Assembly: GCA_964023205.1 (NCBI GenBank)
Contig: OZ026840.1
Location: forward strand, 29,392,064 to 29,456,063
Direction: 5' to 3'
Length of the DNA: 64,000 bases
Source: Lutraria lutraria
Lineage: Eukaryota; Mollusca; Bivalvia; Venerida; Mactridae
This document shows, piece after piece, positions 13,301 through 37,132 of this stretch; position 1 is the stretch's first letter, and each line of letters opens with the position of its first letter. The notes beneath the pieces are model-generated. The model worked only from the letters and a program-made list of their open reading frames with translations. It ran no database searches and had not been told where the DNA came from. The translations under genes and the position numbers were made by a program.

Positions 13301-14101
13301 CAGTGTATTTTCCTCTTTGTCTTTATGTTCAGTATACATCACTTGATTATAAAAATAATTATTTCATTAATTAAAATAACAAAAATATAATATATAATCA
13401 TACTCTTCATTGTAATATTTTTGTTCAGTTAGAAATGTGCATTCAATTGTACCAAATTATTTGTCATCATATATGATTTATATTTCGACTTCATGTTCCT
13501 CTAACTTACATGTATTTTTTAAATAATGTTTTGTCTGATGAAATTGTTATGATAATAAATTATCTAAAACATATTCATTTGTTACGTTTTATTTCATATG
13601 AACATGTATATGTATGGTTATCAATTCCATTTAGCCTAATACCAATGTCCTTTAATTACATATGATAGAACGGGATTTCTCGTATAAATAAATTTATTAT
13701 ATATTTTGAATTATCAATGCATAAGCAACATATTAGAATTAAGGAACTACTTTGAAATACAAAATGTTATAATCTTCTTAATCCATATAGCCAATTAATT
13801 AATTCGCATCATATATATTTATACATAAATTCACATATTCAAATGTGATAAAAAGGATTTATAAATATTAGTTCACGTTTATAACATATAATGTTTCACA
13901 AAACATCCATTATCACAAACTTGCAATTTACAAAATAACATATCATCGATTGTAGATTTTAACTCCAGCAGCTTAATTGATACGGTCTGTTGATCCTTCT
14001 TTGTTCATATCGTCAGTGTTTTCCGATAATCCCTCTTTGTGTATGTCGTCAGTGTTTTCACTCTTTATCTATATGGTCAGTTAAACTCGTCAGCAGTTTA
14101 G
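10331..14101. mobile_element. 3.77-kb palindromic element filled with satellite-like repeats
   Basis: The left ~120 bp (10331-10451) and right ~120 bp (13982-14101) are inverted copies; both outer ends read ctaaact.ctgacgagtt going inwards. The same words that make up the ends (tatatggtcagtt, tgtttttcctctttgtcta, ggtctgttgatc) recur many times inside as tandem units. The clearest is a ~170-210-bp period between about 11940 and 12740, marked by gaccagttgaatatagagtg at about 11941, 12110, 12307, 12500 and 12709. Many units carry a small palindrome (GGTCAGT...ACTGACC). No protein is encoded. It interrupts a Harbinger transposase on its right and abuts the 6.5-kb element on its left. No target duplication is visible. 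Confidence 0.75.
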
Positions 14102-14491
14102 TGCGACCCGTTGTACTGTCCTGCGTTCGTCGTCAGTGGTCGGAAACTTAATGTACGTGTCTCGTAGGTCAAACAAAATGTCAGTCACACGGGAAACCAC
14201 ACGGGACACGGTGGCAATATCTACCCCAAACGTGTCCCCGATCAACTGAAGAAAGCACCCAGATGCAAAAAATCTGAGTGCAATCAGAATCTGTTGTCGA
14301 ACTGTCAGTGCACAGTTCCGTCTCGTCTCATGTCGAAGTTGGTCACCAATCAGGTCTTCCAGTCTGTCCAGATTCTGAGATCCAAGTCTGTAGCGTCTGC
14401 GTAATTCTTCATCGTCGAGGTCGTCCGTCTGTCTGTGTACTCGTCGAAACTGTCTCGGTCTGCGAGCGTTAGGTACAACAAGGGCGGCCAT
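14102..14491 (-). pseudogene. PIF/Harbinger (HARBI1-like) transposase, N-terminal part, truncated
   Basis: From an ATG at 14491 (reading leftwards) about 130 residues are open, then run into the inverted end of the 3.77-kb element and stop at once. The segment has the helix-turn-helix block that precedes the catalytic domain in HARBI1-like nucleases: RFFASGCFLQLIGDTFGVD followed by TVSRVVSRVTDIL and IKFP. The first conserved catalytic block (GCIDGTH-like) is missing, and I do not find it beyond the inserted element. This is therefore a dead fragment of a DDE transposase of the PIF/Harbinger superfamily. The frame itself has no internal stop, so the break is probably not very old. It is head-to-head with the KDZ-type gene that starts 500 bp to the right. 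Confidence 0.7.
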
Positions 14492-14690
14492 TACGAAATT
14501 GGTTAACGTTCTGGTTAAATTTTAACCAGCTTCTTAGACGTTGGTTAAAATAACTGCAAATTTAACCAAAACTATGTTTGGTTAAATTTAACCAAATCTT
14601 TATACAATCGCTAACCAACAGTTTAACCAAGAATTTAACCTAACCTAGGATTTAACCCAGTGGTTAAAGTTAACCAATCTTTATACAATT
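14492..14690. repeat. Array of TTTAACCA motifs upstream of the Harbinger fragment
   Basis: At least nine copies of ttaacca or its complement tggttaa, several as palindromes (ggttaaatttaacca), in 200 bp directly upstream of the transposase start. Harbinger elements carry subterminal repeats bound by their own DNA-binding protein, so this is probably the subterminal region of the same transposon. Its outer end is not certain; cttttatacaatt-like words suggest it lies near 14690. Confidence 0.5.
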
Positions 14691-14994
14691 GGGTGCTGGT
14701 CTTTATGCTCAGAGAGTTCACGCTTAAGATTTATCTCAAGCTCACAACTGCTACATACATTGCTTACTTGACTGCACTTTTGTTAATCTAGTTAGTTCAG
14801 GAATCACTGATAATTCATACGGTCGACTTTTTTCGGGTTGAAATATTAGAATAAATACGATTTGAAATTGTCTGCTATTGCCACGTTGAATCATACAGTT
14901 TTCGCGAATAGACTTTGATCGAATTCGGCTAGTCACTATTTCGGATAGGCGGTGCGTTTTTTCTTTTCTCTAGAAGGTTCGTGTACTAATCATA

Positions 14995-17900
14995 ATGGCT
15001 TCTGCTTTGTATGTCGAGAAGCGTTCTTTTATATTTTCAGGCGATTACACCCGTAACACCATGCTGCTTGCTGGGGATTCCAACGTTCACCGGATTATGG
15101 CTGCAATTCCGAGCGGTTCGTCAATAAACTGTTTGCCAGTGTCTGGTTAGTTTTTTTAGTTAACTTATTCTGTACTAGAATAATTTTTATGAGAGAATTT
15201 TCTAAACAATGATGAAAACCTGGATGAGAAGACAGAGTTCTGTTAAAGGTTAATGGTTTTAAACAGCCCAGTCCTCTATATAAGACATCGCAATGCTCTT
15301 ACTGTTGTTTTATTTTGTCTGAACTGAGATATATTTCCGAAATTTGTCTAAAAAATATATCACAAAGTAGAGTCTAGTCACTTGATGTTTATAGTGTAAT
15401 TGTGAATAATAAAAACAAACATCAGTATTACCTCATGAAGGGTACATGATATTAATGAAATATTGACATACTTTACAAAAATGACAAAATTACTGTCTAT
15501 AAACATAATCTTGACTAATGGTTTGCAAATTTTAGTAAGTTAACATAATGTTAGATGATATGTTTACAAATCTTATGGAATGAAGAGCATGCACAAATGG
15601 AAATGGTGCAGTGTACGGTAGGTATTATAATTATTAAATAGGAGGAGGAAAACAATGTACCCAATGCTGGGCGTGAACCCAAGACCTCCTGATTGCAAGT
15701 CCAATGCTCTACAAACCAAGCTTATCTAGCTGTTAATATTACAGCCAAATTATAAATACAAATACTATATCAAGGCATACTACTACATTCCTCCGTCTTG
15801 TCAAATTGACTAAATGCGACAACCACAGTCTAGTGCTCAGCCTCATTAGACTAATTATAACCCAGCCTTTGCTTTTGGAAAAGAATGTACCAAATGGGGC
15901 CTGGGCTTGAACCCATGTTGGATGCTCTGCCAACTGAGCTATTCAGGCTGTTAATTTTACTGTCAATTTATGAATACAAATACTCTGTCATACTGCTACA
16001 TATAAATTACCATGAAAACTCATCACATAATGAAAACCAGTGACTTTACCTGATTTTCCTTTTGTAATAGGAGGAGGAAAATAATGTACCCGGTGCGGGG
16101 CTCAAACCCTCGACCTCCTGCTTGCAAGTCAGATGCTCTACCAACTGAGATAATCAGGCTGGTGAATATCCCAGCCAGTTTATAATACAATATACGACAC
16201 TGCTACACTTTCTTATCACTAAAGTCATGTTTATTTAAATATGTTACTATGGAATGTCCTTGTAAATACTATATGTGACTGAGCTTTACTACAATATTTG
16301 AAAAACATTATACTTCTTTGTAAAATGTTTATTGATTATTATTTTTTAAACCCATCTAGGGGCTAGGATTGTTAATGATGTGAAAGGATTCAGCAGGTCA
16401 CTGAGGACAGAATTGGAAAAGGTTACGTATGACCAAGTCTACCTTCACCTAGGAGCCCATGACATTCTTTGTCAACAGGGCACATTTTACAAGTAAGTAT
16501 CAAAAATTAAGTTAATTAATCATTACCAATGTTGAAAAAATCATTTAAAGAAGTTTACACATTGGCTTTTTCAGTCTTCACAAATAACCTTTTCATTTAC
16601 CGGATATTCGGTATTGTGAAGGCTCAAATCTTACTAGATCGAGATCGAAGAAACTTTTATCAGACCAAATCTTAACCTGTTTTTGCTGGGTCAAATTTTG
16701 TTTCTACAACATTTATGAAATTATATTTCTTACACATAGAGTAAAACCTTGTTATCTCGAGGAGCCATCAGACCAGACTTAATGCTGGAAATAAACCTGG
16801 TGCTGATATAATAAACAGGTTTTGTTCATTGAATGAAAAATAAATGGTGTATCACGCGTGTTAACTGGCATATTTACAGTAATACTACCAAATACTTACA
16901 CAAATGTGCACCGTGATGTATATGATGAAAATATATGTTTCTTTGAATGTATAAAATATGCATTGATCATTTAAATAAAGTTCTTTTTCCATAAATATGT
17001 TCGTGTGTTTTCTGTTTTGCAATACCATGTCTGAAACTCGTGTTATTTAGGTGAAACAATAGTGACATGACGTGAAAATTACTTATGTCAATGCCATATA
17101 GTTACGTCTAATGAGTCCTTCACTTGATTACTGATATTGTGTTTTTGTGCGACATTCTTTAATGTTCATTGATAGCAGTAAGTGAATCATAGATTTATCT
17201 GCGTATATATATTGGTAACTGCTTTTCAAATGTGTAATTAGTTCTTAATTAAGATCTCGTAATTAAATTCCCAATTAAAAAATGACTGCAAACTTGCAAC
17301 AAACAAATCAAGTTTCATTGACATTTTAAATCACGAGTGCATTGTCCAATTTTAACTAGGTGTGAAAAACAAAGTACTCAATTAAGATATGTTTGTTTAT
17401 TGCCTAATTTAAAAACATTGTCTTACAGGAATGTGTGCGAGCTCTGTGACATGGTTCACCAAGTCAGCCCATCTTCACACATTGTCTTGTGTGAAGTTCC
17501 TCCAAGAGGTCCAGATATGAGGAGAGGTGTCAGGTTATCCAAGCAGAAATTGTTGAGCTACAGGTGTTGGATCAATGAGGCCAATGATACTCTGTTGGAG
17601 ATGAGCCACCATATTCCATACATGAAATTCCTGTACTACAGAGGGATATCTTCAGTAATAATGTCTTGTCAAATATTTTGTTTTAGCTTATAAGTGTATT
17701 TCTATACAATCATTGGTAATAATTGTGTATATTTGTGTATATTTGTCTCATTGTAAGAATGAATATAAATTGGTAATATTTAAGTTGTACATCCCTTAGT
17801 CGAAGATCTTTGACAGATGCATTATATGATATTGCAGTTCATCAAAATAGCTGTCCTTGAAAAGCTAACAGGTATATGACTCTAATTGAGTCACATTTTT

Positions 17901-18385
17901 TTCCCTATTAAACACACAAATTTCCATAAAACTGGGCAGTACAATGAATTATACCAAAATCTATCAACATTACCTAAAATAAGCATTCAACTGGTAAAGG
18001 TTTGAATATCTTACCAATGTTACAGACTACTCTTATTTTCAACATTTTCCTTGCAGTGCTTTGGATGAAGTCTTCATCAAGTGTATGGTTGTATATCATT
18101 TCTCAGTTGTCTTCATATCAACATGTAATAATAATTTTGTTTCAGGTCTCGCACTTGTCTAGAGACGGTTTGCACCTGAACCCAGCTGGTGCAGAGCTTT
18201 GTCAGCGGGCCATCTGTAATTACATTGCTGCCAATGTCCCAAGTTTACAGCTCAGTCAAGTTTGCAGCCTTGAAGAAGATTGTTTCCCTGCCAGCTGGCC
18301 ACGTCTTGATGACAACGAACCTGATGCTGTTGATACCATGTCTGAGGAGAGTGGTCATAAGTCTTACGCTGCAGTGGCTAGAAGG
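14995..18385 (+). CDS. Exons 1-4: SGNH (GDSL-type) hydrolase-like domain
   Basis: Exons 14995-15145, 16360-16492, 17429-17654 and 18146-18385 give residues 1-250. The SGNH family's block I is LLAGDSNVHR (candidate nucleophile Ser29). Strand-end blocks follow as VSGARIV (~49-55) and DQVYLHLGAHDI (75-86). The closing catalytic block is DGLHLNPAG (Asp177, His180), as in GDSL/SGNH esterases. The usual G-x-N-D of block III is G-A-H-D here, so the oxyanion-hole Asn is replaced by His84. The domain could therefore be a binding module rather than an active esterase. SGNH domains are known in ORF1 proteins of some CR1-type retrotransposons; finding one joined to a DDE-type transposase region is unusual in my experience. 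There is no signal peptide. Confidence 0.7.
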
Positions 18386-21300
18386 GTAATAAACCCGTGA
18401 ATTATAAGATTTTTTTCCCAATATTCATACCATTGTCTCAAAAAGAAACTCACTGAAATGTTACAGAGATCAAGTACAAATTATGCCATAATTATTTTGA
18501 AAGAGAGCTTATAAATATGACTTATGTCAGAAACAGAGTGTATAAAATAATTATAAGAAGCTGAATTATGGAAAGGAACATACTTTGAATATTCATATAT
18601 TGTCTATTTCAGAATCATGCTGTTGTTGAAGTTCCAAAGGAGAACCTCTCAAAGCAGGCTTGTTCAGAGAAAAACCCAACTGCTAAGGTATAGAATACTC
18701 CTATATTTTATTATTATATAGTTCTGGCGTTGTCTGCCAGGCTGTTAGTACTTCTGTTTGTCTGGATATCTGTCTGTCCATGTCACTTTTTGAAACTTGC
18801 AATCACTTTAAAACTTGTGAAGGTTATTGTTTGAAATTTATAATGTAGGTAGAGCATGATGGGATCAAAAACTGTAACTCTGTCATGCCTTTCGACTCAA
18901 TTATCACCCTTTCTGTATTAGAAAAATGAGGCTTTTACTTAAAATTACTTAAAAAGTGCTAAAGGGAACAGGCTGAAATCTAAGGAGAGTGTTATGAGTG
19001 GAAGTGCAGTGAGCATAATTATAACTATATCATTCATTTTTACTGAATTATCCCCCCTTTAGAACTAAGAAAAACTGTCACTGTTACTTATAATTACTTT
19101 AAAGTACCAAAGGGAAGTGCATAAAACTTCTGCTTTAACAAACTGACAAAGATGCTTGGCAGCAGATGTCAATTCAACGTATTTGCTTGTTTCTTGCAAT
19201 ACTCTTATTAATTAAGATTTGGTAGAACTAAGAACTAGTAATAATATCTTGAAATTAGTCATTATCAAAAAAGAAAACTTTTTGTTGCAGGTTATTGTCA
19301 AAGTACGCAGAAAGGCAAGATACTTCAGAAGACAGACCCGTAAAACTTCTAATCGACTCTGCAAAATGGTATAATTCTTTTGTTAAGTTTTGAATGGATT
19401 TATAACATGACATTTTTTGCTTCAAATGATTTTTAAGTTGACACCTTAACAAAGTGTAAGTTGCAGATAGCTTTACAAGTTGTTAGTATCATTTTTCTTA
19501 TTTATTGCAGTTTGTGAGGAAACGAAATGCAAGGTATTTTTCTGATTGAACATATTTCAGTTATCTTGAAATTCAAAACAGTTGCTGATTTGAGACTTCT
19601 CATAACTTTTTTTATATGATTTTAATTTCTGTTTGAGATTGTATTGGAATGTTTATTTTTTGTATTGGTCCTTAACTCTTGAAACTTCAGATGTAGAACC
19701 TTTCTAACAGTCATACATTCAGTAAATACATCAAAAGAAAACTTACACTGAAATTTGTTATGAATATGTGCAAGTCTCAAATAACTGTGAAAGATTTATA
19801 ATTACAGTTTTCTGTACAACAAAGAATCTCCACAGTTTTCCTCAGACCGAGATTCTTTTGTACTGTTTTTGTTTATAAACTTTATAGTCACAGAAAATAC
19901 ACTCTAATTATTAGCATAGGCTCAGTTTCGGACAGGCCTGCTTTATTTTTTTAAAAATCGGAAGTCTGCTTGCGGTGCGCTCAACATAGTTGCTACAGTG
20001 GCTGTCTAATATCCGTGTGTGTAGCTCAAAGGTCAAGGTCATACTTCAACAAGAAGGTCACAAAGAGGTTCAAAATTGCTGGTGTAGACCATCATTGTAC
20101 AACCACTTCATCTCTTGACAACAATGGGCACATTATGTTGCCCTTGAGCTTCTGGTGTTGTTTGATTTTGTTGTGTTTTTATCAAAGTTGCATAAAAGTA
20201 TGTTCATATTCTGTTTATGTTCAATGCAAAAAAAATTCACTGTAAATCTGTTAAATTAATTAAAGAATATTTTTTATATTAAACTTTCATAATATCAGTG
20301 ACTTCCATCTGTTTACAAGATGCTCTAAGTCCTACATCAGGTGCATGATATAATATCACTGCATGGATCAGAGATCTTGACCAGTGGTTATAAAACTTAA
20401 CTTTGGTCTCCGAGCTCAGACCTTACATCTTTTTTAATGTTTATTTTATTTATTATACCATATTTATATAGCCCTTTTTTCATGTAATTACACGTTCAAA
20501 AGTGCTGTACAATCACGATTACGACATGGTTAAAACAATATGTAATGAATACAAACATGTTAGTCAAAAATGATATGGGTAAAATATTATATATACAACT
20601 ATGGACAAATTTATAAGTCAACAAATCCACCGTTAATTTATGCATACAAGTAAGGTACACAATAATTCTAAAATGATTCAAGTCCGTTTGGCTTCGTAAG
20701 CCAATTTAATGTTTCCAATTTAATCATGATCAGGCAATAATGGTTTTACTGATACATTGTAATTGATCTGAATATGTCTTATCCCTATCTTTTCAACCAT
20801 AATACTTTGAGAATGGAGACTTTTTCTGTAGATCTGTAGTCATTTCAATTATTATTATTATAATTTGAACAAACGATATCTTGAATAAATTAGCATAAGT
20901 TCAGATTGTACCTGTTGATGCCAAAAATTAAAGCAAACAGATAAAATTGACTTTTTTAATTTTCAGGAGACTATCTGATGCACTGGATTGTGTAACTATT
21001 AATGTTACAGATGATGTTGCTATTGAACTTAAGGCTTGCAAGATAATGGGATCATGCATGGTAAGTACATTGTATATATTATTGCTTACTAAGTTGTTTT
21101 AGAATCCTTTTTTATTAGCTTACATGAGCACTTTGCGCTCAAGGTGAGCTTTTGTGATCAGCCTTTGTCAGCCTTTTATCTTGTGAACACACTACTGGGG
21201 GCCACATTTTTAGCTCAATGTTGACAAAACTGGGTCAGAATGTTAATACCGACAAAATCTCGGACAAGACTGATGATGGGTCACTTGGGGTCAAAACATT

Positions 21301-24300
21301 GTCAATTTGTTTGTATTAATGATAACTAGGTCAAGTACAAATGTAGGTCACCTGGGTTAAAAACTAGGTCACCTGGTCAAATCTTAGTAAAACCTTATTA
21401 ACCTTTGTTGTCAAATTTTGATTGGATCTTCAATAAACAGAAGGTTTGTCCTATTGATTTGAAGGACAAGATCGAACATGTGTCATCTGGGGTCAAAAAC
21501 TATGTCACTAGGTCAAATTTTAGGAAAACTTTGTTGACATTTAGATGTCACAGTTTTGATTGGATCTTCACCAAACATTGTTAGAATGTTTGTCTTAATG
21601 ATATGTAGGCCAAGTATAAACATGGGTCATCTGTGATAAAGCGATATAGTGCCATCTTAGCCCTCTTGTATTGGATTTTATGAGTACTATATTATATTTT
21701 AGGATTAATTCTTTTAATTAAAAGTTGTTTTAATTAGGGATGCAATGACATGGCATAATTGTGATATATTGCTGTACAGTCGACCAATATTGCAATATAT
21801 ATTGTATGCAGTGAAGTAAGGAAAAACACAATAAACTAAAGCCACAGTCAAGTGTTAACCCATTTCCATATAGAGATATACAATATAACTGTATTAGGCA
21901 TTTCATTCATTTAGTAACAAATCAATAATTTGTTATTCAGAGGGTTGAATCAGTCTTTGATAGTTCAAAACAACTCTAAAAATTGTGTTCATGTTCATTT
22001 AATTATGGATGTTGTACTGGGCGTGGTTCGTATTTGCCTAACACTATATCACAATATACCTGTATATTGTTGCACCACTAATTTTAATTCTGTCAATGAT
22101 TTACAGGGACGTCACCCGCAGAGAAGTGTGACATCCTCGCAGAAAAGTGCAACCACTAAGTCTACTAATGACTATGTCGTTCCTGATAGAAAGAAGGGAA
22201 AGGTATTATTCTTAAGTTACTATTACACATGTACATACATCAATAAATAGCAAAGTGGCCACTCTGTAACTTTGTCATTATGGTAGGATTTCATTATAAC
22301 TTACTGCAAAATGTAAACCATCATTAGACGATGTGTTGGACGCAACTTCCATGCCTGTACCTCCAATGTCAAGGTCACACTTAAGAGTTCAAAAGTCATA
22401 ATTTAGCTTTTTAGCCGTGTCCTCTCTGTAACTTTGTAATTCATCGGAAGATTTTGTTATAACCTACAATTGTCTACAATGTGTCTCACGCAAATCCCAT
22501 CAATGTAGCTCTTAGGTCCATGAGGCATGTGGGGGTATTTGTCATCATGTGATAGCTCTACTTATTCTAAGTATTGGTAACATTTACATTTTTCTTGACA
22601 GATGGTTTGGTTGTTCTGCCCAGATTGTCAGGTGAAGTGTTCACGGGATGATTTTCTTCTAGACCACATCATCCGACGACACGGTTCCCATTTCTACAAA
22701 CCAGAGGAGAAGAGAGTGAGACCTAGTCGGAATATTTGCATACCACCAGCAGAAACAGTATGTAGTTTGCATTGATCTTTGCACACTGTATCTTCAGTCT
22801 TACACTGGAGTCTTCCTTGATGGTGCTGCATACAACTGTCCAGTTGAAAACTGTTGTCCATTGGTTGATTGTTGAAATACATGTCAGAAATGTTCATTAA
22901 TATGTTACTCTAAGGTTAAAGGTTATAAAATTTGATATTTTTTTGTGTATGCTCAGTAATTTGGTCTTCTATGGGCGGACTTCAGAACCTCATGGCAGAA
23001 ATGCTCCTTCATGGCAGGAATGTTGAATAATATGTGGCGATGTGTCATGCGCAACGTCATAAGTCTGTACACTTAGAGGTTAAAGGTTAAAAGGGTATTT
23101 TCATGTCTGCTCAATCACTATGTCATCCATTTTTCATGCCCACTCAGTGATTTGGACATCTATTGATGAATTCTGGAAATACAGAAATGGCAGGAATGTT
23201 CACCAACATGTGATGGTGTGTCATGTGTGGAACTGCCTCTCGAAGGAAATTAAGTTTGCATCTTTAAGTAATATCCAATAACATTTTCTGAAAACCCTTT
23301 ATACCTCAGATTTTAAACAGCATCATGCATGTGGGATTAATTGATCACTGTGACAAAGCTCTAGTGTTTTATAAGTTATGTATTAAATCTGTAAGACATT
23401 GTTTCTTATATCTGCAGGAAGAAAGTCCCAAATCTGTTGATCCAATATGTAGTGATTTATACAGCAGTCAGCATACTTGCGAAGGTATACATGTAAACAG
23501 CATTAATCTTGAAACATTGTGTTATCTGTCATGTTAGTTGAGTGACGATTAAAACTATTTCATACATGTAAATGATGTGTCAAAACAACCAACAATACAC
23601 TAATTAGACATAAATGAAATACCGCTTGTAACACAATAAAGCTGGACATAGTGAAATACTGTTGGAATTCTGCAATTCAATATACAAATAAAAGAAACTT
23701 GATATTTTTTTGCTATATTACTATCTGTAATGGCATACAACAACAGTATATGAAATCAGTATGAAATGAAAATTATTTCATCATAGAAATCAGTATTGCT
23801 AACAGCATGTATGTTTTTCTAATAACTATCAGATGTTAGATGCTTTTAAATGAATGTTTATTTTTTCAGAAATGCAGTTGGACATACAGGAAGATGCTGA
23901 CACTGCCAGACTATGCCTACTTCTATCAAATGATGTTGAGCAAAACCCTGGCCCTGTAATAGTTTTATCTTTGTATTTATCATTGTTTTATTTCTATTTC
24001 TATTGAAGGGCAGTGCTTTTTGTCTGTATATTTCTTGTTTAAAGTACTATATGAACTAAATAGTTTGATCTCTAATGACACTCAGATTTGTAAGTTGTTA
24101 GTTGGGTGGATTCACTTATTCATTCTTAACATAGACAGATGAAGGAAATAAGAAAACTTGCAAATTGAAATGTTTATTTATTCTTTACAGACTTATACTT
24201 GTAATTGGGATGAGTGTTCCATGGTATTCTCATCAATTGGAGAGCTTGATATCCACATTATCCAGCATGTCTCCAAGGATAGGGTTTGCAAATGGGCTGG

Positions 24301-27300
24301 CTGTGATGTATTCAAATCTGATTTAGCCTCTCTGGAGGTCCATGCATTGCAACATTTATACAACGTAAGTTTTTGTTAAATTTGTATAACATGCTATTGT
24401 AATTCAATATTAAATTGGGTTTTGGAAATGTGTGTTTCAGAGTTTCATTTATGTGTTGTTGCTTTTCTGGTACAGAGAATTATTTTTCTAATTGTAGAAA
24501 GAATTCTTTCCATCCATTGAAGACGGGTACAGAAGCCTTCCATCAGGACAACTCAATGAGAAAACAACTAACTTACAACTCTGTCCAAGACACTTGGTAA
24601 GGCATCATTTTATTTACTGTATATTCTTTTCAAAACAGTGTTTATCAAATCAAGTAATAGATCAGCATGAGTCTAGTTAAGTTTCTTATTGAAGCTTTGT
24701 AATGACTCCTCACAATGCCTTGATTTTCCGTAATTATACCCCCAGATATTATGGGGGCTATATTGGATTCACGCTTGACGGTCGGTCCGTGCGTCTGTAG
24801 ACACAATTTGTCCGGAGAATTTCTCAGCAACTACTTACAGGATTTCAATAAAACTTCACAGAAGTGATCAGTAGTAAGCCTAGTTGTGCTAGCTTAAAGC
24901 AATTTTTTTTCGGATTAATTATCACTGAGTTATACCCCTTTGTTGTTTTAATACAGTATATATAATAGGCAAATTTTGTCCGGACAATTTCTCAGCAACT
25001 ACTCACAGTATTTCAACGAAACTTCACAGAAGTGATCAGTAGTAAGCCTAGTTGTGCATGCTTAAAGCATTATTCGTTCGAATTAATTTTCACTGAGTTA
25101 TAGCCCTTTGTTGTTTTTATACAGTATATACAATAGGCAAATTTTGTCCTGGCTATTTCTCATTGACTACTGCCAGGAATTCAATAAAACTTCTCAGAAG
25201 TGATGAGTAGTTAGCTTAGTTGTGCATGCATTAAGCTTGTCTTGGTTGGTTAAATTTTCATTGAGTTATGGCCCTTTGTTGTTTTTTATACAGTGTATAT
25301 ACATTATCTCAGTAACTACTCATAGGAATTCAATGAAACTTCACAGAAGTTATAAAAAGTAAACCAAGTTGTGCATGCAATAACCAGGTTTTGTTTGGAT
25401 TAATTTTCACTGAGTTATGGCCCTTTGTTTTATACAAATAGGTAAATTTTGTCTGTACCATTTCTCAGCAACTACATGCAGGAATTCATTGAAACTTCTT
25501 AGAAGTGATAAATAGTTTGCCAAGTTGTACATGTCCACAACAGGTTTTGTCCAAGTAAATTTTAATGAGTTATGGCCCTTTGTTATTTTTTATATAATGT
25601 ATATTTAGAAACTGGTCGGGATATATCTAAGCAACAATTTGCAGGTATTAAAAAAATGAAAATTCATTATATTTCCCTCTGTAAAATGTAACAATAACTG
25701 TGTCAAGGCCGCATCTGGGGGTATTCATCACCTTTAGTGATAGTTCTAGTTTGAAATATTTTCACATGTATGCCTTCTTGAAATTCAACGAAGATAGATT
25801 TCTTTCAGCGATCCAAATTGATGTTTCTGTTGTTTGATGAAGACTTTGTCATGCAGTCCAATACATACACAGCAGATGATCACCAGCTGTATTTAGAGAG
25901 GCTAAGTATACAGTATCCATTTAAATTCAATGTCATGAAAGACACATTTTTACAAAAAAGAATGTCATTAGGTGAAAATTGGGTAAATACCAGTACTGAC
26001 TCATTAGAAAATAGTTCCAGGTTAGCTTCAACTTGTAGTAGCTATATTTCTTCTTTTCAAAGACCTATCTATACTACTGTCTCAAATATAGGAGAATATG
26101 ACCGAATTTCAACATCTCGACCTGAACTTGCTACCAATTTCTTTTCAGGAACAGAATTAAGGAAACCAAGCAAGAGAAAACACTCTTCTTGTTTTGGTTC
26201 TACTTGGTCTGAAAGTCTTATGAATAATTTATCATCCTGTTGTCTTGCTATGAAAATTGAAAATTCAATATTACAAATAATGTCTGACAAAGATATTGTG
26301 ACATCTTCGCAACCTTCATTTTTTAAACTTGAGCAAGAAGCAGCACGCTTGTCATCTCTCAAAGACTGTTGCAGTGGTTCTTTTGTGTATAATGTGTTTA
26401 AATGTACAATTGAGAATAGAGAAATATATTACATCAGATATTTTGAGTCTGGAGTCTATTTAGGTTTTATGCTTCAGAGGTATTTATACATTCTTAAGAA
26501 TAAATTTGATTTCACTGATGATACTGTTTTGTTACATAATACTATAACAACTGAGGATATTAAAGAAATGACTTTGGAATCAAGTGTACAGAAAGTGAAA
26601 AGGTATAGGCCAAATAAAATTTATAAATATTCAGTAGAAAATGTTATGCTTCCTGCTACAAAAGAATTACAAAAAAAAAAAAATTGTCCAGAAATAAAAT
26701 TGGAGTCTTCTTGTGTACATGTTTTACCATTTAAGAGTAAGGTAACTGTTGACAATCCAGCAGATATGTTTCTGGAATTATCCAGAGAAACATGTTCATA
26801 TGTTGATTTTAAGAGTTATTTACTTGACTTTAGACTTCACAAGCTAAATGATGAAAATGATATATCTTCAAAAAACATTTTTAAAGAACCAATAGTTGCA
26901 CAAAAGAACTTACTGCAACAGTCTATAACAATGAATTGCTTGTCTGGTAATATTAAACGGAAATCAAACTTGTTTAAACGATCTGCACGGTTTGAATCTA
27001 ATTTTCCCTTCAATGTTTCGGTTGCAAGTTCTTTAAGAAACAGAACCATTAACTTCTATCTTAATAATGACTACAGTGCTTTAATTTCTTTCTTCGTTAA
27101 ATATTTTCCAGAATTAAATGGCTTATCTGTTGAAGGTCCTGAAGTGGAGATTCCTAATATTACACCAGCTACAAAGAAGAGGAAAAGACAGCCACATAGA
27201 ATACAGGGTGTAGTAGTAACCAAAAAGGACTTGGAGAGTCAATTAATATCAGATTCTATAAGTTCAGAGTCCTCCAGTACAATTCCAATAAATATCTTTG

Positions 27301-29980
27301 ATAACTTTTGCTGTATGCTTTTAGATCACGGTAAAATGGCAATTCAGTCTTGCGATGATAATGGCGCACTTATTTGTTGTTTAAATGATTATAGTGATAT
27401 AGATGCTTCTTTTAAACACAATGATTTTGTATATACAGCAAGGCTCCCACAAGAAGTAGGTGATTACTTTTATTGCAGTTGTAATGCTTTTAACACATTG
27501 ATAAATCTTAAGAATTGTGCTAAAATTCATGAAGACTTTATTGTTTTAGATGCAGCTGGAGATAACTGTGTGACATGCATGCATTGTAAGTTTTTGAAGA
27601 AGATGGTTATGCCAGCAATAAGGTCAGGTAATGTAGAAACTAGAATGGATCAGTTTGTCGCTGATGCATTGAAATATAAAGGTAAGGACATTATCGAAAT
27701 TTCACGATTTAGAGATACACGTAAGTATATAGTATTAGTAGAAGGGGATGATATGCCAGTATTTGTACATTTAACATACAATCAGAGAACAGATAATTAC
27801 ATTGTCTCATGCCTTAATGGAAAATGTAGATCTCTCCGTGGTCATAAGAAAAATGTGACATATTTGACAACTTCCAATGTTTGTAAGCATTTAGCCATTT
27901 TAAAACAGCATACTGAGTTTTGGCAAGATTTATTAGATAATCAGAGTGCAATTAATATACCATCATCTAACTCTTTCATTGATGACAACACTACTGAAGA
28001 CAATAATAATCTAAATCTTAATACTGATATAGCAGACACTGAGGATGAAAATTTTAATGCCTCAACTGGACTTTGGTATTTTAAATGCAAGAGTACACAT
28101 TCTCCACTCAAAAAAGATAATGCCATTTTAAAACATAATGTTTTGGCCCGTGATAAATGGAACGATGATAATTTACAAAGATATTCAGATGGATGCTTAA
28201 AAGGCCCAAGTTTATTTCCAGATATTCCTGAAGACAATTGCAGTTGTAGTGCTGGCTGGCTGAAGAGAGAAGATGATCATCAATTTAGTGAAAACGGAAT
28301 TACTGTGAATGAAAAAAAGAGACTTTTGACAATTTACACACAATTTGCGCCTGTAAAATGTGAAATTCATTATAGGATATGTTACAGCTCTGAAAATCAA
28401 TGCAAATTATTTTGGGATGAGGGTCAATCCATAGGTGTTCATGTTCTAAGTAGAGACACAGCAGCAGGGGATGAAATAGGGTGGGAGTTTGTTTCAATGG
28501 TTATTAATTCAGGTATTACTTTTTCATCATTTTGTCAATTAAAAACTGAAACTTACAGGCTTAGGAATGATGAGGCTAAATTCATGGACTCCAAAGTTTT
28601 TATAAATTGGTGGTTTAGTTGGGCTGCTTGTATGAAGATAGATTTTCGTAAGCCATGTGATGTTTGTGGATTTGAACCCAAACGACTCTGTTGTGATGGT
28701 ACAAGAGTAGGTGTAGGCTTTAGACATGCTAATTATGTAGAAATTAATACAACCATTCCGAATAGTCTCATTCAATCTACACTTCATCGTCGAATGGACC
28801 GTTGCTTTCTAAAAAATATGAATGGAATAAATAAACAGCAGATGATAGCAAATCGAACAACTTTAGATTATTTAGCTAGAAGAGAAATTGGAGATCTTGA
28901 TGATAAAGATACTATAAATCCTGCTGAACTAGATTTGAAAATTGATTCTGTAAAAACTGTTTTGCCCCTTGAAGTTCTGCATCGTTTGAACGTTTTTTTA
29001 CAATGACTGAATTTGAAAAGTTGGCATATGCACATGTATTGAAAATGCTCAGTAGTACAGCATCCATAACAAGCCTTTTACCACCTTCTTTCTGTACCAA
29101 ATTACAAGAGTTTGTTGATAATCCTGAGTCTGATGGCTCTCAATTTAATATTATAATGAATGAGATGCGAACTTATGCTCCAGAGCTTAGAGATCTTATA
29201 TGTGAATCCATGCTTTGCCATGAGAATATTCTTCCAAATGATATTAGACTTCTACTACAGTATTTGATAAATGAATCACTTTGCATTGATGTAAATGAAC
29301 CAGAACCAGCAATTCCTCAGCCTGAGACATATAATCCCGCTAAATTTGGCACGGCATACTATTTTAATGAGTCAGGTTTGAAATTAAGAAATTGTAGAAA
29401 ATATACAATAGATAATGATAACAATGCTAGGAGGAATAATGATCATGATGATGATGCATTGGAATTTGAAAGATGTCAAAAGATTTATTCAAAAATTCAA
29501 CATTCTGCTCCTGGCACTTCTAATTTATTTCTTTGGTTTTGTGCTGACCATGGTCATTGTTATGGATTCCATATGACAGGGGCTGAAGGGAGGAAAGATC
29601 CAGCAGCCTCACTTAACTCTTATTTAGAAAAACCACCTCAAGATATATTTTATGATTTTGCTTGTAATTTGCAGGAATATTGCCTTAACAGAGAGAGTGG
29701 GTTTTACAAAAATGTCCGATTTTTTCATGATATCTTTCATGGCTATGCACACAAATGTTCTAGTGCTTTTAAATCAAGTAGACTTCAAGGGTTTGAGTCA
29801 GTAAATTCAGAAATCTGTGAACAGTTCAATAGCTTTATTCAGTGTATAAAAAAGTCTGCTAGACAAATGTCTCAAACTCATTTTTGTTTTTATCTTCGAT
29901 TCTTCCTACATGAATGGAATGAAAGAAAAAATTCTCTGTACAAAAAGAAAATAAGAATAGCTTTAGCCGGATTGGTCTGA
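14995..29980 (+). CDS. Composite SGNH-like / C2H2 / 2A / KDZ-type transposase gene (15 exons plus -1 frame extension)
   Basis: Exons by position: 14995-15145, 16360-16492, 17429-17654, 18146-18385, 18613-18687, 19291-19368, 19511-19533, 20967-21060, 22107-22202, 22602-22757, 23418-23484, 23870-23955, 24191-24364, 24498-24596 and 25809-29006. All introns are GT..AG and every phase joins, giving 1,631 codons. The ATG at 14995 has a good context (ataATGg). By residue: SGNH-like fold ~23-200, basic linker ~276-372, C2H2 finger 378-399, 2A motif 468-475, C2H2 fingers 479-501 and 508-530, and cysteine-rich KDZ/CxC5-like region 567-1631. A -1 shift at 28994-29000 would add 29003-29980 for about 1,956 residues. 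I infer a transposase-derived or host-transposase fusion gene. The several repeats in its introns and the intact frames suggest a long-resident gene rather than a fresh insertion. The exon model has no transcript support. Confidence 0.75.
15640..16210 (-). repeat. Three tRNA-derived SINE copies in intron 1
   Basis: Heads at about 15640-15740, 15880-15950 and 16071-16165, all on the minus strand. The reverse complement of the third reads ctcagttggtagagcatctg (A box), cttgcaa (anticodon loop, TGC, Ala-type), then gggtttgagcccc (B box), ending ttattttcctcct. The second copy has lost part of the anticodon arm. Each is followed by a shared tail with tataaattg..tacaaatac words. The acceptor stem does not pair well, so these are SINE heads and not tRNA genes. 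Confidence 0.65.
18613..22202 (+). CDS. Exons 5-9: basic linker
   Basis: Exons 18613-18687, 19291-19368, 19511-19533 (23 nt), 20967-21060 and 22107-22202 cover residues 251-372. The stretch KVRRKARYFRRQTRKTSNR in exon 6 and FVRKRNARR across exons 7-8 are strongly basic and could act in nuclear import or nucleic-acid binding. Exon 9 is Ser/Thr/Lys-rich (QRSVTSSQKSATTKST) and ends in RKKGK. I recognise no fold. The exons were accepted because each has a polypyrimidine-AG acceptor and a GT donor and the phases (0,0,2,0,0) join with no stop. Confidence 0.6.
21110..21670 (-). repeat. Hairpin-ended repeat, family A, in intron 8
   Basis: The right edge (21633-21669) is the reverse complement of acaagagggctaagatggca...ctatatcgct, the head seen at 41131. 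The left edge (about 21115-21160) has the nested palindromes gagcactttgcgctc and aaggtgagctt. Inside are two to three ~127-bp units with cacctgggttaaaaactagg and gttttgattggatcttca words. Confidence 0.6.
22245..22567 (-). repeat. Hairpin-ended repeat, family B fragment, in intron 9
   Basis: Shares accatcattagacgatgtgt, gcatgtgggggtatttgtca and gtgatagctctac with the copies at 30871-31188 and 37591-38365. The CCCCCA hairpin end is missing. Confidence 0.55.
22602..24596 (+). CDS. Exons 10-14: three C2H2 zinc fingers around a 2A motif
   Basis: Exons 22602-22757, 23418-23484, 23870-23955, 24191-24364 and 24498-24596 give residues 373-566. Finger 1 is FCPDCQVKC...H-x4-H (Cys378, Cys381, His394, His399). 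Exon 12 ends in the 2A motif. Exon 13 holds two fingers with C-x4-C spacing, YTCNWDEC...H-x3-H (479-501) and VCKWAGC...H-x3-H (508-530), the spacing of GLI/ZIC-type fingers. If skipping occurs at the 2A, finger 1 stays with the SGNH part, and fingers 2 and 3 go to the N-terminus of the transposase product, where a DNA-recognition module is expected. Confidence 0.7.
23932..23955 (+). other. 2A ribosome-skipping motif DVEQNPGP
   Basis: The last eight codons of exon 12 encode D-V-E-Q-N-P-G-P, matching the 2A consensus D(V/I)ExNPG/P, preceded by the Leu-rich run LCLLLSN usual in 2A-like sequences of invertebrate retroelements. The final Pro codon is the last codon before the donor gtaata. Skipping would release residues 1-474 and restart at Pro475, followed by the fingers of exon 13. 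If the intron is retained, the frame runs on for 16 hydrophobic residues (VIVLSLYLSLFYFYFY) to a stop. Confidence 0.75.
24731..25752 (-). repeat. Hairpin-ended repeat, family B, with tandem core, in intron 14
   Basis: The left edge is taattataccccc followed by a hairpin (cccccagatattatggggg). The right edge is gtattcatcacctttagtga with tagttctag. The core is a tandem array of about five units of 145-175 bp, each with ctcagcaactact, aaacttcacagaagtgat and gagttatggccctttgtt. It is noncoding. Confidence 0.65.
25809..29006 (+). CDS. Exon 15, first frame: KDZ-type transposase, cysteine-cluster region
   Basis: One uninterrupted frame of 1,065 codons entered from the acceptor tctttcag (25801-25808). 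It is AT-rich, with much Asn, Lys, Ser and Ile, unlike exons 1-14. Visible features: a nuclear-type basic patch KKRKRQPHR near 27170; a SWIM/CxC-like cluster YFYCSCNAF...CAKIH and CVTCMHC (27467-27600); CLNGKC...SNVCKHL (27812-27890); and near the end FINWWFSWAACMKIDFRKPC followed by DVCG and LCCDGTRVGV (28597-28715). The DFRKPC..CG...CDGT block resembles the CxC5 cluster of HMGXB3 and KDZ (Kyakuja-Dileera-Zisupton) transposases, with Asp1529 a candidate first catalytic acid. The frame ends NVFLQ-TGA. An A13 run (26671-26683) lies in coding sequence. Confidence 0.7.
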   Translation, partial: RSKLMFLLFDEDFVMQSNTYTADDHQLYLERLSIQYPFKFNVMKDTFLQKRMSLGENWVNTSTDSLENSSRLASTCSSYISSFQRPIYTTVSNIGEYDRISTSRPELATNFFSGTELRKPSKRKHSSCFGSTWSESLMNNLSSCCLAMKIENSILQIMSDKDIVTSSQPSFFKLEQEAARLSSLKDCCSGSFVYNVFKCTIENREIYYIRYFESGVYLGFMLQRYLYILKNKFDFTDDTVLLHNTITTEDIKEMTLESSVQKVKRYRPNKIYKYSVENVMLPATKELQKKKNCPEIKLESSCVHVLPFKSKVTVDNPADMFLELSRETCSYVDFKSYLLDFRLHKLNDENDISSKNIFKEPIVAQKNLLQQSITMNCLSGNIKRKSNLFKRSARFESNFPFNVSVASSLRNRTINFYLNNDYSALISFFVKYFPELNGLSVEGPEVEIPNITPATKKRKRQPHRIQGVVVTKKDLESQLISDSISSESSSTIPINIFDNFCCMLLDHGKMAIQSCDDNGALICCLNDYSDIDASFKHNDFVYTARLPQEVGDYFYCSCNAFNTLINLKNCAKIHEDFIVLDAAGDNCVTCMHCKFLKKMVMPAIRSGNVETRMDQFVADALKYKGKDIIEISRFRDTRKYIVLVEGDDMPVFVHLTYNQRTDNYIVSCLNGKCRSLRGHKKNVTYLTTSNVCKHLAILKQHTEFWQDLLDNQSAINIPSSNSFIDDNTTEDNNNLNLNTDIADTEDENFNASTGLWYFKCKSTHSPLKKDNAILKHNVLARDKWNDDNLQRYSDGCLKGPSLFPDIPEDNCSCSAGWLKREDDHQFSENGITVNEKKRLLTIYTQFAPVKCEIHYRICYSSENQCKLFWDEGQSIGVHVLSRDTAAGDEIGWEFVSMVINSGITFSSFCQLKTETYRLRNDEAKFMDSKVFINWWFSWAACMKIDFRKPCDVCGFEPKRLCCDGTRVGVGFRHANYVEINTTIPNSLIQSTLHRRMDRCFLKNMNGINKQQMIANRTTLDYLARREIGDLDDKDTINPAELDLKIDSVKTVLPLEVLHRLNVFLQ
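28994..29000 (+). promoter_or_regulatory. Candidate -1 frameshift site T TTT TTA
   Basis: Read in the zero frame (GTT TTT TTA CAA TGA), these seven bases fit X XXY YYZ with X=Y=T, the strongest class of -1 slippery heptamer. The zero-frame stop follows one codon later. After a -1 shift, reading continues ACA ATG ACT GAA into the 29003-29980 frame, which has no stop for 325 codons and encodes the rest of the transposase. A weak hairpin (ATGCT...AGCAT, near 29045-29063) lies downstream, farther than the usual spacing. A lost T in an ancestral T8 run, or a homopolymer error, would look the same. Confidence 0.55.
29003..29980 (+). CDS. Second frame: KDZ-type transposase, C-terminal catalytic part
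   Basis: 325 codons from an ATG that overlaps the previous stop (ATGA, 29003-29006), in the -1 frame. The first ~140 residues are acidic and unremarkable. From ~165 comes a well-marked block: LFLWFCADHGHCYGFHM, GAEGRKDPA, PQDIFYDFACNLQEYCLNRE, RFFHDIFHGYAHKCSSAF, NSEICEQFNSFIQCIK, and MSQTHFCFYLRFFLHEWNE. This is the pattern of KDZ-superfamily transposases and of HMGXB3-like proteins, which have an RNase-H-like fold. Candidate acidic residues are Asp218, Asp243 and Glu273. With the CDGT Asp of the first frame, the catalytic set would be split between the two frames, which argues that they are joined (frameshift, or an ancestral single frame). Termination-reinitiation at ATGA is a third possibility. 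Confidence 0.75.
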   Translation: MTEFEKLAYAHVLKMLSSTASITSLLPPSFCTKLQEFVDNPESDGSQFNIIMNEMRTYAPELRDLICESMLCHENILPNDIRLLLQYLINESLCIDVNEPEPAIPQPETYNPAKFGTAYYFNESGLKLRNCRKYTIDNDNNARRNNDHDDDALEFERCQKIYSKIQHSAPGTSNLFLWFCADHGHCYGFHMTGAEGRKDPAASLNSYLEKPPQDIFYDFACNLQEYCLNRESGFYKNVRFFHDIFHGYAHKCSSAFKSSRLQGFESVNSEICEQFNSFIQCIKKSARQMSQTHFCFYLRFFLHEWNERKNSLYKKKIRIALAGLV

Positions 29981-30028
29981 CAGTTCTATTGGAAACCATA
30001 ACTCTTTCTTTAAGTAAAATATGTTTAA

Positions 30029-30034
30029 AATAAA
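30029..30034 (+). terminator. Poly(A) signal AATAAA
   Basis: AATAAA 49 bp after the TGA of the second frame, in an A/T-rich context. It is suitably placed to end the transcript of the composite gene. Confidence 0.5.
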
Positions 30035-30324
30035 TTTAGGTGGATTTTTGCTCAACAAACTATGAATATTCATATCAATTTCTTTAGTGTGTGTATGTAC
30101 AAGTATCAGTACTTGTATTAAGTTTAAAGGACCATAACACATACATATTTTCAGATGGTTTACATCATTTCACTTTGTCACTTTGCAAACATCCTTAATC
30201 AACTTTGGTATTTAGAGCTGTAATATATCCTTATGTTCATATTGATTGTCTATTGTAGTTGTATTTTCATTGATATTTTTTTGGTCAAATCTCATACCTT
30301 TGTATTCTGATATCAACATATTGT

Positions 30325-30626
30325 GCCCCCACTCTGAAAGATGGGGGGCATGTAAGTTTACCCTTGTCTGTCCATCAGTCTATCCATCTGAAAATCTTCA
30401 AGAATGTTTGGTGTGAAGTTAAGGAACTGTACAGAAATGTTAATAAACATTCTGAAGTTGTAGTCAAAGGATTTTAACTCTGTCAAAGGCTGAAGACTCT
30501 GGAGTTAGTTGCCCTTGAATTATTATTTTGGTAGTACATATATGAAGATCTTGTGTCAAGTATAGTGTACTATGACTAGAATATTACAGTGGTGCATCTG
30601 TGTCCTATGGACACATTTCTAGTTGT
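30325..30626 (-). repeat. Hairpin-ended repeat, family D
   Basis: The left edge is the hairpin tgcccccactctgaaagatggggggca; the right edge is gtgtcctatggacacatttctagt. It is the reverse orientation of the 39324-39705 copy. Confidence 0.6.
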
Positions 30627-30870
30627 ATGTTAAACAATCCATTTTTTAGCATTAAATTTAACATTATATGTAACAATTGAATTGTATCAAAATAATCATG
30701 GTAGTATATTTGTGAAAGTTTTCACAGCTTCATTGTATCTGCATTTGTTTTTAATTATTTATTATATATTTCTGCAACTGTACTTATGTGCATGTCTGTG
30801 CAATATCTGTTGTAAATGGCCATGGGCTATAAATGCTAATTTGCTATGAAGTATGTATGTATAATGGTGT

Positions 30871-31188
30871 AATTATACCCCCACTAAAATAGTGGGGGCT
30901 ATGTAGGAGTCACTTAGTCTGTTGGTCTGTCTCGAATCATGTCCACTATGTAACTTACCACTAATGTTAACCACCACTAGACAATGTGTCACGCACACCT
31001 AGCTCCAAGGTCATATTTAGAGTTTACAGGTCATAATTTTGGTCTTTTTGACATGTCCCCTCTTTAATATTGTCATTTGTCGAAGAATTTTGAAAAAACT
31101 AAACACAAATGTGAACTCCCATGGCTGTAGCTCCAATGTTTATGCAGCATGTGGGGGTATTTGTCCCTTTGTGACAGCTCTAGTTGAT
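30871..31188 (-). repeat. Hairpin-ended repeat, family B, short copy
   Basis: Starts aattatacccccactaaaatagtgggggct (stem CCCCCACTA/TAGTGGGGG) and ends tttgtccctttgtgacagctctagtt. This is a compact copy with the full pair of hairpin ends and little core. Confidence 0.65.
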
Positions 31189-31567
31189 AATAGTTTTATT
31201 CTGGTAGAAAAACAATGAAAATGACAAAATTTATCATATACAGAAATAGAATGATATGTCATGGTCGTTAAAAAGGGGTCAATATTTCAGTTATTTTCAT
31301 TGAAATTAATTGAATTGTGTTCAAATAATCATGGGAGTACATGGCGGAAATTTTCTCAGCTTCATTGTTTCTTTACTTTTGTTACATGTACTTCTAATAA
31401 TATTAAATGATATTTTGTGTATTTTTTGCTTCTTACAAACTTACAAATATAATATTGTAATACCCACCAAAAAGCATTCAACATAATTGTCAGTTGTGTG
31501 AAATGCATTATTTTGTTTGTGTTTTGTTTTGTGTGTGTATATACATGCGTATGCAGGAGTGTTTGGT

Positions 31568-32868
31568 GATATGGTAAAGGGTAAATAGGTGTGTTGTGAT
31601 GAGGTTAAGGGTTGTAGTGTGGTTAAGGGGTGATGAGGTTAAGGGTTGTAGTGTGGTTAAGGGGTGATGAGGTTAAGGGTTGGTGTGTGGTGATGAGGTT
31701 AAGGGTTGGTGTGAGGTGATGAGGTTAAGGGTTGGTGTGTGGTGATGAGGTTAAGGGTTGGTGTGTGGTGATGAGGTTAAGGGTTGGTGTGTGGTTAAGG
31801 GGTGATGAGGTTAAGGGTTGGTGTGTGGTGATGAGGTTAAGGGTTGGTGTGTGGTGATGAGGTTAAGGGTTGTAGTGTGGTTAAGGGGTGATGAGGTTAA
31901 GGGTTGGTGTGTGGTGATGAGGTTAAGAGTTGGTGTGTGGTGATGCGGTTAAGAGTTGGTTATGGTGATGAGGTTAAGGGTTGGTGTGTGGTGATGAGGT
32001 TAAGAGTTGGTGTATGGTGATGAGGTTAAGGGTTGGTGTGTGGTGATGAGGTTAAGGGTTGGTGTGTGGTGATGAGGTTAAGGGTTGGTGTGTGGTGATG
32101 AGGGTAAGAGTTGGTGTGTGGTGATGAGGTTAAGGGTTGGTGTGTGGTGATGAGGTTAAGGGTTGGTGTGTGGTGATGAGGTTAAGGGTTGTAGTGTGGT
32201 TAAGGGGTGATGAGGTTAAGGGTTGGTGTGTGGTGATGAGGTTAAGAGTTGGTGTGTGGTGATGAGGTTAAGGGTTGGTGTGTGGTGATGAGGTTAAGGG
32301 TTGGTGTGTGGTGATGAGGTTAAGGGTTGGTGTGTGGTGATGAGGTTAAGGGTTGGTGTGTGGTGATGAGGTTAAGGGTTGGTGTGTGGTGATGAGGTTA
32401 AGAGTTGGTGTGTGGTGATGAGGTTAAGGGTTGGTGTGTGGTGATGAGGTTAAGGGTTGGTGTGTGGTGATGAGGTTAAGGGTTGGTGTGTGGTGATGAG
32501 GTTAAGGGTTGTAGTGTGGTTAAGGGGTGATCAGGTTAAGAGTTGGTGTGTGGTGATGAGGTTAAGGGTTGGTGTGTGGTGATGAGGTTAAGGGTTGGTG
32601 TGTGGTGATGAGGTTAAGGGTTGTAGTGTGGTTAAGGGGTGATGAGGTTAAGAGTTGGTGTGTGGTGATGAGGTTAAGGGTTGGTGTGTGGTGATGAGGT
32701 TAAGGGATGGTGTGTGGTGATGAGGTTAAGGGTTGGTGTGTGGTGATGAGGTTAAGGGGTGGTGTGTGGTGATGAGGTTAAGGGTTGGTGTGTGGTTATG
32801 AGGTTAAGGGTTGGTGTGTGGTGATGAGGTTAAGGGGTGGTGATGGGTTAAGGGATGGGGATTAGCAG
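31568..32868 (+). repeat. G-rich 26-bp minisatellite
   Basis: About 48 tandem copies of ggttaagggttggtgtgtgg+tgatga (26 bp), with scattered variant units of ttgtagtgtggttaagggg. The plus strand has regularly spaced runs of two to four G (GG.TTAA.GGG.TT.GG), so two-layer quadruplexes are possible. The array is nearly homogeneous, suggesting recent expansion. TTAAGGG resembles but is not the metazoan telomere repeat TTAGGG. Confidence 0.9.
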
Positions 32869-32965
32869 GGAGTTGGAGGTATATGTGAGGTGGTTGTGCA
32901 TATACACAATCCAATGTTAATAATGGTTCAATGTTAAATGTGTTTGTTTTATTTTTCCGTTTTTT

Positions 32966-33175
32966 AACTACGCCCCCTTTCTAAGAATAGTGGGTATATT
33001 GCTTTCCACATGTCGGTCATTCAGTCCATAACCAAACCTCGTCTGACCAATAACTAGAGAACGATTTGGCTTAAGCTGTTCAGATTTGGTTTGGAGATTG
33101 GTCATCACATGTACATGACCCCTATTGATTTTGAGGTCAAGGTCACGAGGGGTCATTCGTTTTTCACTTCTTGTT
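32966..33175 (-). repeat. Dispersed repeat fragment related to the hairpin-ended families
   Basis: Begins actacgccccctttctaaga and contains ccaataactagagaacgatt and ttgaggtcaaggtcacgag, words typical of the dispersed repeats elsewhere in the window. The frame at 32968-33156 is part of it. Confidence 0.45.
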
Positions 33176-33887: not shown

Positions 33888-33894
33888 TCTTGGT

Positions 33895-34031
33895 TTAGTC
33901 CAACTAATTAGACTGTTTGGTGACGGCGATACATTTTTCGACTTGGCTCCGTCCTTGCACAGTTTGAGAGATGGTCCCTCCGAATTCATTCACGAAATCA
34001 GCCAACCGAAAAGCCGATATACTAGGGCTAC
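33895..34031. mobile_element. Short copy of the 7-bp-duplication element
   Basis: Internally deleted relative of 2615-3375, in reverse orientation: TTAGTCCAACTAATTAGACT at the left, gccgatatactagggctac at the right, with tttttcgacttggctccgtc inside. It is flanked by tcttggt (33888-33894) and tattggt (34032-34038), 6 of 7 identical. Confidence 0.7.
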
Positions 34032-34785: not shown

Positions 34786-34789
34786 TGTA

Positions 34790-35690: not shown

Positions 35691-35692
35691 TA

Positions 35693-36982: not shown

Positions 36983-37132
36983 CTGTAATTTACAAATGGT
37001 AGAAGAAAACTTACAAAGAAAATATCCATCTTAAAACCTAATTAAAAACAAGATCTTAACTTTACAAGAACTTTTTCTTAATATTTGCTAAATGAAGGAA
37101 CACTTAATCAGGGTTGCCAGAAATTATAACTA

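Follow-up and report, generated by a model that had tools for sequence, protein, structure and literature searches.

We found that the window, i.e., the whole 64,000-nucleotide stretch of the Lutraria lutraria genome analysed here (C9:29,392,064-29,456,063, C9 being the window's contig), most likely carries a gene belonging to a large DNA transposon of the KDZ type. The gene comprises 15 predicted exons, and a 2A motif within it is predicted to release an esterase-finger protein before a finger-transposase protein; we would give this reading a probability of about 0.72. Its domains follow the order SGNH, C2H2 finger 1, 2A, fingers 2 and 3, KDZ transposase, and the existence of a single gene with such an order is well supported by the sequences compared. 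A single mature transcript presumably spans the whole set of predicted exons. Taken together, the copies described below would represent a new, conserved variant of KDZ transposon. Coordinates of all features are collected in Table 1.

Table 1. Features of the window, in window positions; C9up, C8a and C8b are further copies of the element.
Feature	Position	Strand	Remarks
Insertion, right end, against the shortened left end	14090..14695	.	HTH_Tnp_4 E 0.001, under cut-off
Copy of KDZ element	14696..49857	+	35.2 kb; first ~147 bp absent
Exon 1	14995..15145	+	start codon, SGNH block I (GDSN)
Exon 2	16360..16492	+	SGNH block III (GAHD in window copy, GAND in C8a)
Exon 3	17429..17654	+	SGNH
Exon 4	18146..18385	+	SGNH block V (DGLHLNP)
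Exon 5	18613..18687	+	linker
Exon 6	19291..19368	+	basic linker
Exon 7	19511..19533	+	microexon, 23 nt; identical in C9up, C8a, C8b
Exon 8	20967..21060	+	
Exon 9	22107..22202	+	
Exon 10	22602..22757	+	C2H2 finger 1
Exon 11	23418..23484	+	
Exon 12	23870..23955	+	leucine-rich lead-in and 2A; octamer DVEQNPGP at 23932-23955
Exon 13	24191..24364	+	C2H2 fingers 2 and 3; zf-C2H2 3.6e-5, under cut-off
Exon 14	24498..24596	+	
Exon 15	25809..29980	+	transposase body, KDZ 29342-29920; frame broken near 28980 in window copy
Lone exon-like remnant, NAD-binding motif of P450/sulfite reductases	41008..41097	-	NAD_binding_1 0.047, under cut-off; PDB 4e-5
Right inverted repeat and terminus	49787..49857	-	63 bp at 49787-49849; 87-90% to inverted C8a/C8b left ends

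Exon borders placed by script in the window copy (14995-15145 to 25809-29006) are all of the GT-AG type, and all phases are compatible. The first-pass annotation, which had described fifteen exons with fitting phases, was thus right on both points, but exon 15 is split by a frameshift near 28,980. The frame starting at 14995 hits a stop at 29004-29006, upstream of KDZ, and the KDZ region is found in another frame. In the sister copy C8a, located on the minus strand of contig C8, the 15 exons form one open frame of 1,955 aa. Its exons 1-14 align with those of the window copy over their full length (exon 5 is three bases shorter), and exon 15 aligns nearly to the end. All 15 exons of the tandem copy C9up align full length, with four gapped positions in exon 15. 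Since the exons of sister copies align and C8a is open throughout, we regard the frameshift as damage to the window copy; having also lost its left end, this copy is probably inactive itself. Only exons 1-8 were recovered from C8b, and six exons, several of them gapped, came from C7a, which was examined in part.

The KDZ transposase profile (PF18758, Pfam) matched the window with an E-value of 9.2e-12 and 45.6 bits, against a cut-off of 26.6. This clear match bears out the KDZ catalytic region proposed in the first-pass annotation; for the cysteine cluster proposed along with it, no Pfam match to CxC4 or CxC5 was obtained in the window protein, and in one relative, P0012, CxC4 matched at 1.1e-5, just below cut-off. 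The name KDZ reportedly comes from a PNAS paper of 2014. When the species' own genome (728.5 Mb, 71 contigs) was searched with the KDZ profile, five candidates were scored and all five matched, falling into three lineages by later comparison. The C2H2 fingers are weak Pfam matches in the window. The SGNH blocks, the three fingers and the 2A between fingers 1 and 2 are all present in the window copy, just as had been proposed from its letters. Among 16 relatives, five have three C2H2 patterns beside the 2A and nine have one or more.

The same order recurs beyond the close copies. A second KDZ lineage, on the 33,976-bp contig C25, has SGNH at 4158, DGLHLNP at 4949, finger 1 at 8251, 2A with fingers 2-3 at 8890 and the transposase at 10097-14227, including KDZ at 13601-14173; its transposase frame (1,402 aa) is open over 1,377 codons and is 55% identical. 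C6 keeps this order on its minus strand: SGNH, then a finger, the 2A, further fingers and a transposase that is broken, with 40-74% identity by piece. Exon 1 (GDS) had no match in C25 or C6, the C6 sequence examined ending at that point.

Searching with the whole C8a protein yielded 16 proteins. Mercenaria P0001 (1,921 aa, 46% identity over 94%) begins inside SGNH and continues through 2A to KDZ; Mactra P0007 joins SGNH and 2A to the transposase without fingers and without a KDZ match. In Mytilus (31% identical), KDZ had no match in P0015 and P0016, both of which contain SGNH, fingers and 2A; in P0015, the full set of three SGNH blocks, together with fingers and 2A, lies ahead of the transposase body. 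Pieces of SGNH, 2A and KDZ are kept in Mya P0010 and P0014, KDZ being under cut-off in the latter. Another Mya protein, P0017 (LOC128220554 isoform X2, 467 aa), is made up of SGNH and finger 1, its end falling just short of the 2A exon. Dreissena P0002 and the contig protein P0011 have finger 1 without SGNH ahead. A 6,366-bp contig encodes P0011 as one unbroken frame of 1,675 aa that spans finger, 2A, fingers and KDZ; this would fit a spliced message or an intronless copy. Parts of the domain order are thus shared by proteins of Mercenaria, Dreissena, Mactra, Mya and Mytilus, but no single annotated protein among the relatives unites complete SGNH, 2A and complete KDZ, and it is C8a that has the order in full. 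A tree built from the transposase part places C8a with a Mactra antiquata protein (support 1.000) and scatters the architectures over several branches. A search with an eight-row alignment returned, among the matches listed, its own first member only; it has no bearing on taxa outside bivalves.

As for the SGNH domain, exons 1-4 are similar to Lipase_GDSL_2 (Pfam; E 1.7e-7), yet their 32.4 bits fall half a bit short of the cut-off of 32.9. Blocks I, III and V read GDSN, GAHD and DGLHLN in the window copy and GDSN, GAND and DGLHLN in C8a. All three catalytic blocks (GDS, GxND, DxxH) are found in C8a, P0017 and P0018, while the window copy is without the Asn; catalytic blocks recur in P0007 and P0015 as well. 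In a PDB sequence search, the only credible match was 4c1b, the ZfL2-1 ORF1p esterase of zebrafish L2 (8e-5 for the window, 1.1e-5 for C8a), which stood alone below E 0.1 for both queries and was also the best PDB match for two relatives (0.011 and 4.2e-6). Structure models of these two relatives had SGNH hydrolases as their best fold matches, PAF-acetylhydrolase-like ones first. Because both models are weak (low-confidence mean pLDDT of 41 and 53), we take these matches as support, not proof. The relative P0018 (287 aa), consisting of SGNH only and 41% identical, scored 7.4e-11 and 43.3 bits with Lipase_GDSL_2 and passed the Pfam cut-offs of two GDSL families; scores were weak in P0001 (0.018), P0015 (0.0066) and P0016 (0.02). 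The first-pass annotation had held that SGNH domains in mobile elements are known from CR1-type retrotransposons only. This is wrong: SGNH carriers go beyond CR1 (PMC3905857, PMC4021074, PMC6431247), among them rotifer giant retroelements with GDSL esterases (PMC6431247). For the L2 esterase, the available part of PMC3905857 reports hydrolysis of an acetate ester and affinity for anionic phospholipids. By analogy, the SGNH product of our gene might be an esterase or a lipid-binding helper resembling the ORF1p esterases of non-LTR retrotransposons.

The octamer DVEQNPGP, preceded by CLLLSN, closes exon 12 and fits the 2A core (D/G/C/N)(V/I)ExNPGP. Such 2A/StopGo sequences also occur in non-LTR elements. 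In 547,912 six-frame residues, covering the window and 21 other stretches of at least 9 kb, the octamer pattern occurred five times, always at the same position of KDZ gene copies; the C25 and C6 lineages also have it. DVExNPGP is present in nine of the 16 proteins recovered with the whole C8a protein. Among the seven proteins without it, P0003, P0005, P0006 and P0008 start downstream of the 2A position, and P0004, P0012 and P0013 look short in front, judged by the positions of later motifs. Across ten rows chosen for having the motif, mean pairwise identity was 0.92 in the octamer versus 0.08 in residues 15-40 upstream, some of which may be intron in C25 and C6. The lead-in is KLLLSG in Mercenaria and P0011, while that of the window ends in SN. 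In the available part of PMC12846837, LLLLSG-like lead-ins, to which KLLLSG-type hexapeptides belong, form one upstream 2A class, with one similar motif (motif 6) being active, and D-type octamers favour G immediately before them; a term search of that part gave no mention of transposons. The SN before the window octamer may thus lower 2A efficiency. Overall, it is plausible that the predicted gene gives two products by 2A, which would act in translation and split the product. The interpretation of the first-pass annotation, one transcript yielding two proteins in fixed ratio, is supported in part; Mya isoform P0017 arrives at SGNH plus finger 1 by stopping ahead of the 2A exon.

The boundaries of the element were drawn by comparing copies. 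The element ends CATCCTTCATGTG in C8a, with one base different in the window copy. The left border in the window, 14696, was set against C8a, C8b and C7a, which have 124-147 bp more in common and then diverge. The right terminus is common to the window copy, C8a and C8b, with different flanks, and the C9, C8a and C8b copies have both termini in common, again with different flanks. The outermost 8-10 bp of the left and right ends are unlike each other; the 63-bp inverted repeats near termini common to three insertions are those of a TIR DNA transposon. We read five left ends (C8a, C8b, C9up, C8:17.75 Mb, C13) along with five right ends (C9, C8a, C8b, C17, C11) and saw a different flank at every one; in a sixth left end, C7a, the outermost bases differ. 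Copies of DNA from the gene's 5' portion lie on at least C9, C8, C7, C14, C3 and C13. The C8a element measures 43.6 kb (the sequence examined leaves out 37,197,000-37,203,000, where the genome search shows matches), and C8b measures 20.2 kb, with about 15.4 kb lost internally. Such evidence makes it likely that the large DNA element is mobile.

No target-site duplication of 7-9 bp was found in any of the three copies with both ends; at k = 2-12, they gave only TATA, TTA and none. According to the available part of PMC12730594, Zisupton and Dileera produce 8-bp and Kyakuja 7-bp duplications. Because neither length was seen in any of the three copies, we do not file the element under any of these groups. 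The missing duplication is the main gap in calling the element a cut-and-paste insertion.

Several other observations concern the element and its surroundings. A tandem duplication on C9 with a period of about 110 kb (window 13138-64000 and C9:29294535-29346500) carries two element copies, and the element's right part is found again in a third, partial tandem copy (C9:29202924-29209379 and C9:29217911-29218131, matches displayed at 100%). The insertion abutting the shortened left end of the window copy is presumably Harbinger-like; as seen from C9up, this DNA comes with an inverted repeat of 27 bp and a duplicated CTG triplet. In C9up (56.3 kb), the initial ~149 bp of the KDZ element are cut off from its remainder by Harbinger-like and other DNA, about 20.4 kb lying between the left end and the equivalent of window 14696. 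The reductase-like remnant is splice-bounded and antisense within the element, inside a stretch common to C8a and C8b. No further exon was found for it, and the window was not among the matches listed in an own-genome search with the NAD-binding family. When 475 six-frame ORFs of window 30,050-49,857 were compared with C25 and C6, the best 40 of 348 alignments contained no further conserved genes and looked like dispersed repeats. Pfam searches on nine stretches of this region yielded two weak hits that fell below cut-off: NHR2 (0.086) and, from the reductase-like remnant, NAD_binding_1 (0.047). A 26-bp minisatellite of 44 copies (90% matches) lies inside the element at window 31663-32842.

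Between C8a and the window copy, dN/dS is 0.45 (44 changes, 16 synonymous and 28 non-synonymous), the SGNH exons contributing only two synonymous and four non-synonymous changes. Substitutions in exons versus introns amount to 0.75% versus 1.15% in C8a (P 0.018), 1.18% versus 0.87% in C8b and 0.29% versus 0.17% in C9up, the last two comparisons being non-significant. The exon and intron rates disagree between copies, and the evidence for selection among young copies within the genome is weak and in part contradictory. A stronger argument is that the domain order, together with the open transposase frame of C25, has survived at about 55% identity.

The scenario we consider most likely is that a single transcript is translated into two proteins, an esterase-finger one that ends in NPG and a finger-transposase one whose first residue is proline. 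At the 2A, the ribosome would release the former and then continue to the latter, which would bind the terminal repeats and cut there; the assumption that the KDZ protein cuts at terminal repeats is part of this scenario. The esterase-finger product may assist, as is thought for the retrotransposon esterase. Two separately transcribed genes within one element, SGNH-finger and finger-transposase, with a 2A that only trims or stays idle, would explain why P0017 stops where it does and why P0002 and P0011 lack SGNH. We nevertheless hold this arrangement to be unlikely, given that 15/15 exons are in phase in C8a, that P0001 and P0007 run from SGNH through 2A into the transposase and that in P0015 the transposase body comes after the three SGNH blocks, the fingers and the 2A; moreover, P0017 is named isoform X2, and therefore a longer form may exist.

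A different question is whether the SGNH exons matter to the element at all. They could be a captured passenger set without a role in transposition, kept by read-through of the gene; the dN/dS of these exons rests on six changes only, and the block III Asn is lost in the window copy. Yet SGNH precedes the transposase in C25, C6 and Mytilus, relatives rather distant for an unselected passenger, and the recurrence of catalytic blocks in four relatives also argues against such a view, which seems to us quite improbable. Still harder to maintain is the idea of a domesticated, non-mobile host gene (HMGXB3-like) multiplied by segmental duplication. The tandem duplication on C9, the many introns and the unfound target-site duplication speak for it, but the C8a, C8b and C9 copies have exact common termini in different flanks with a 63-bp inverted repeat linking the ends, additional lone left and right ends are present elsewhere in the genome, and both frameshifts and the loss of 15 kb of internal sequence are seen among the copies. 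We consider the host-gene origin very improbable. It is tempting to go beyond the single transposon gene and to suppose a bivalve-wide clade of giant KDZ elements, in which StopGo recoding of a single spliced message yields a retrotransposon-type lipid esterase-finger protein and a finger transposase, with the esterase working in transposition, for instance by directing the transposition complex to membranes or to the nucleus. RNA elements of the copy-paste kind and a DNA element of the cut-and-paste kind would then have a strategy in common. We propose this extension only tentatively and would not bet on it.

Should our main reading be correct, a 2A site would link the transposase of a DNA transposon to a second enzyme, a case not found in the literature searched. 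Neither SGNH nor a native 2A was found for KDZ elements in titles and abstract openings (most subscription journals being outside the coverage), and a term search of PMC4981915 gave no mention of transposases. The puzzling SGNH esterase of non-LTR elements would also be placed in an element with a DDE-type transposase, its role open to excision assays, and C8a would be an open natural copy with both termini. Among known systems, Zisupton, Dileera and Kyakuja share the KDZ domain with our element, and its inverted end repeats are as in Zisupton. Some KDZ elements likewise carry extra enzymes, TET/JBP in fungal ones (PMC12730594, in its available part). Here, in contrast, no 8-bp or 7-bp duplication was found, and SGNH and 2A lie within the transposase gene; our element measures 35-44 kb. 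In CR1/L2 elements, the type IV ORF1p has an esterase, sometimes with a zinc finger (PMC3905857, PMC4120745, as far as available). This ORF1p and our gene both place a zinc finger next to an SGNH domain, and the two SGNH domains belong to one sequence neighbourhood (4c1b), whereas here SGNH precedes a transposase in a multi-exon gene and no reverse transcriptase was recognised. The fish texim SGNH genes adjoin Helitrons and are mobilised by them, and thus an SGNH hydrolase travels with a DNA transposon there too; texim, however, is a separate neighbouring gene, and no transposase fusion is described in the available part of PMC4021074. With viral 2A/StopGo sequences (PMC12846837, same limitation), our motif shares the octamer and an LLLLSG-like lead-in, but it stands between an SGNH domain and a transposase. 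Finally, the giant transposons Polinton and Teratorn (available part of PMC6431247) are alike in reaching tens of kb, while only one gene was recognised in our element; if the main reading is true, it suggests that KDZ elements, too, can reach giant-transposon size.
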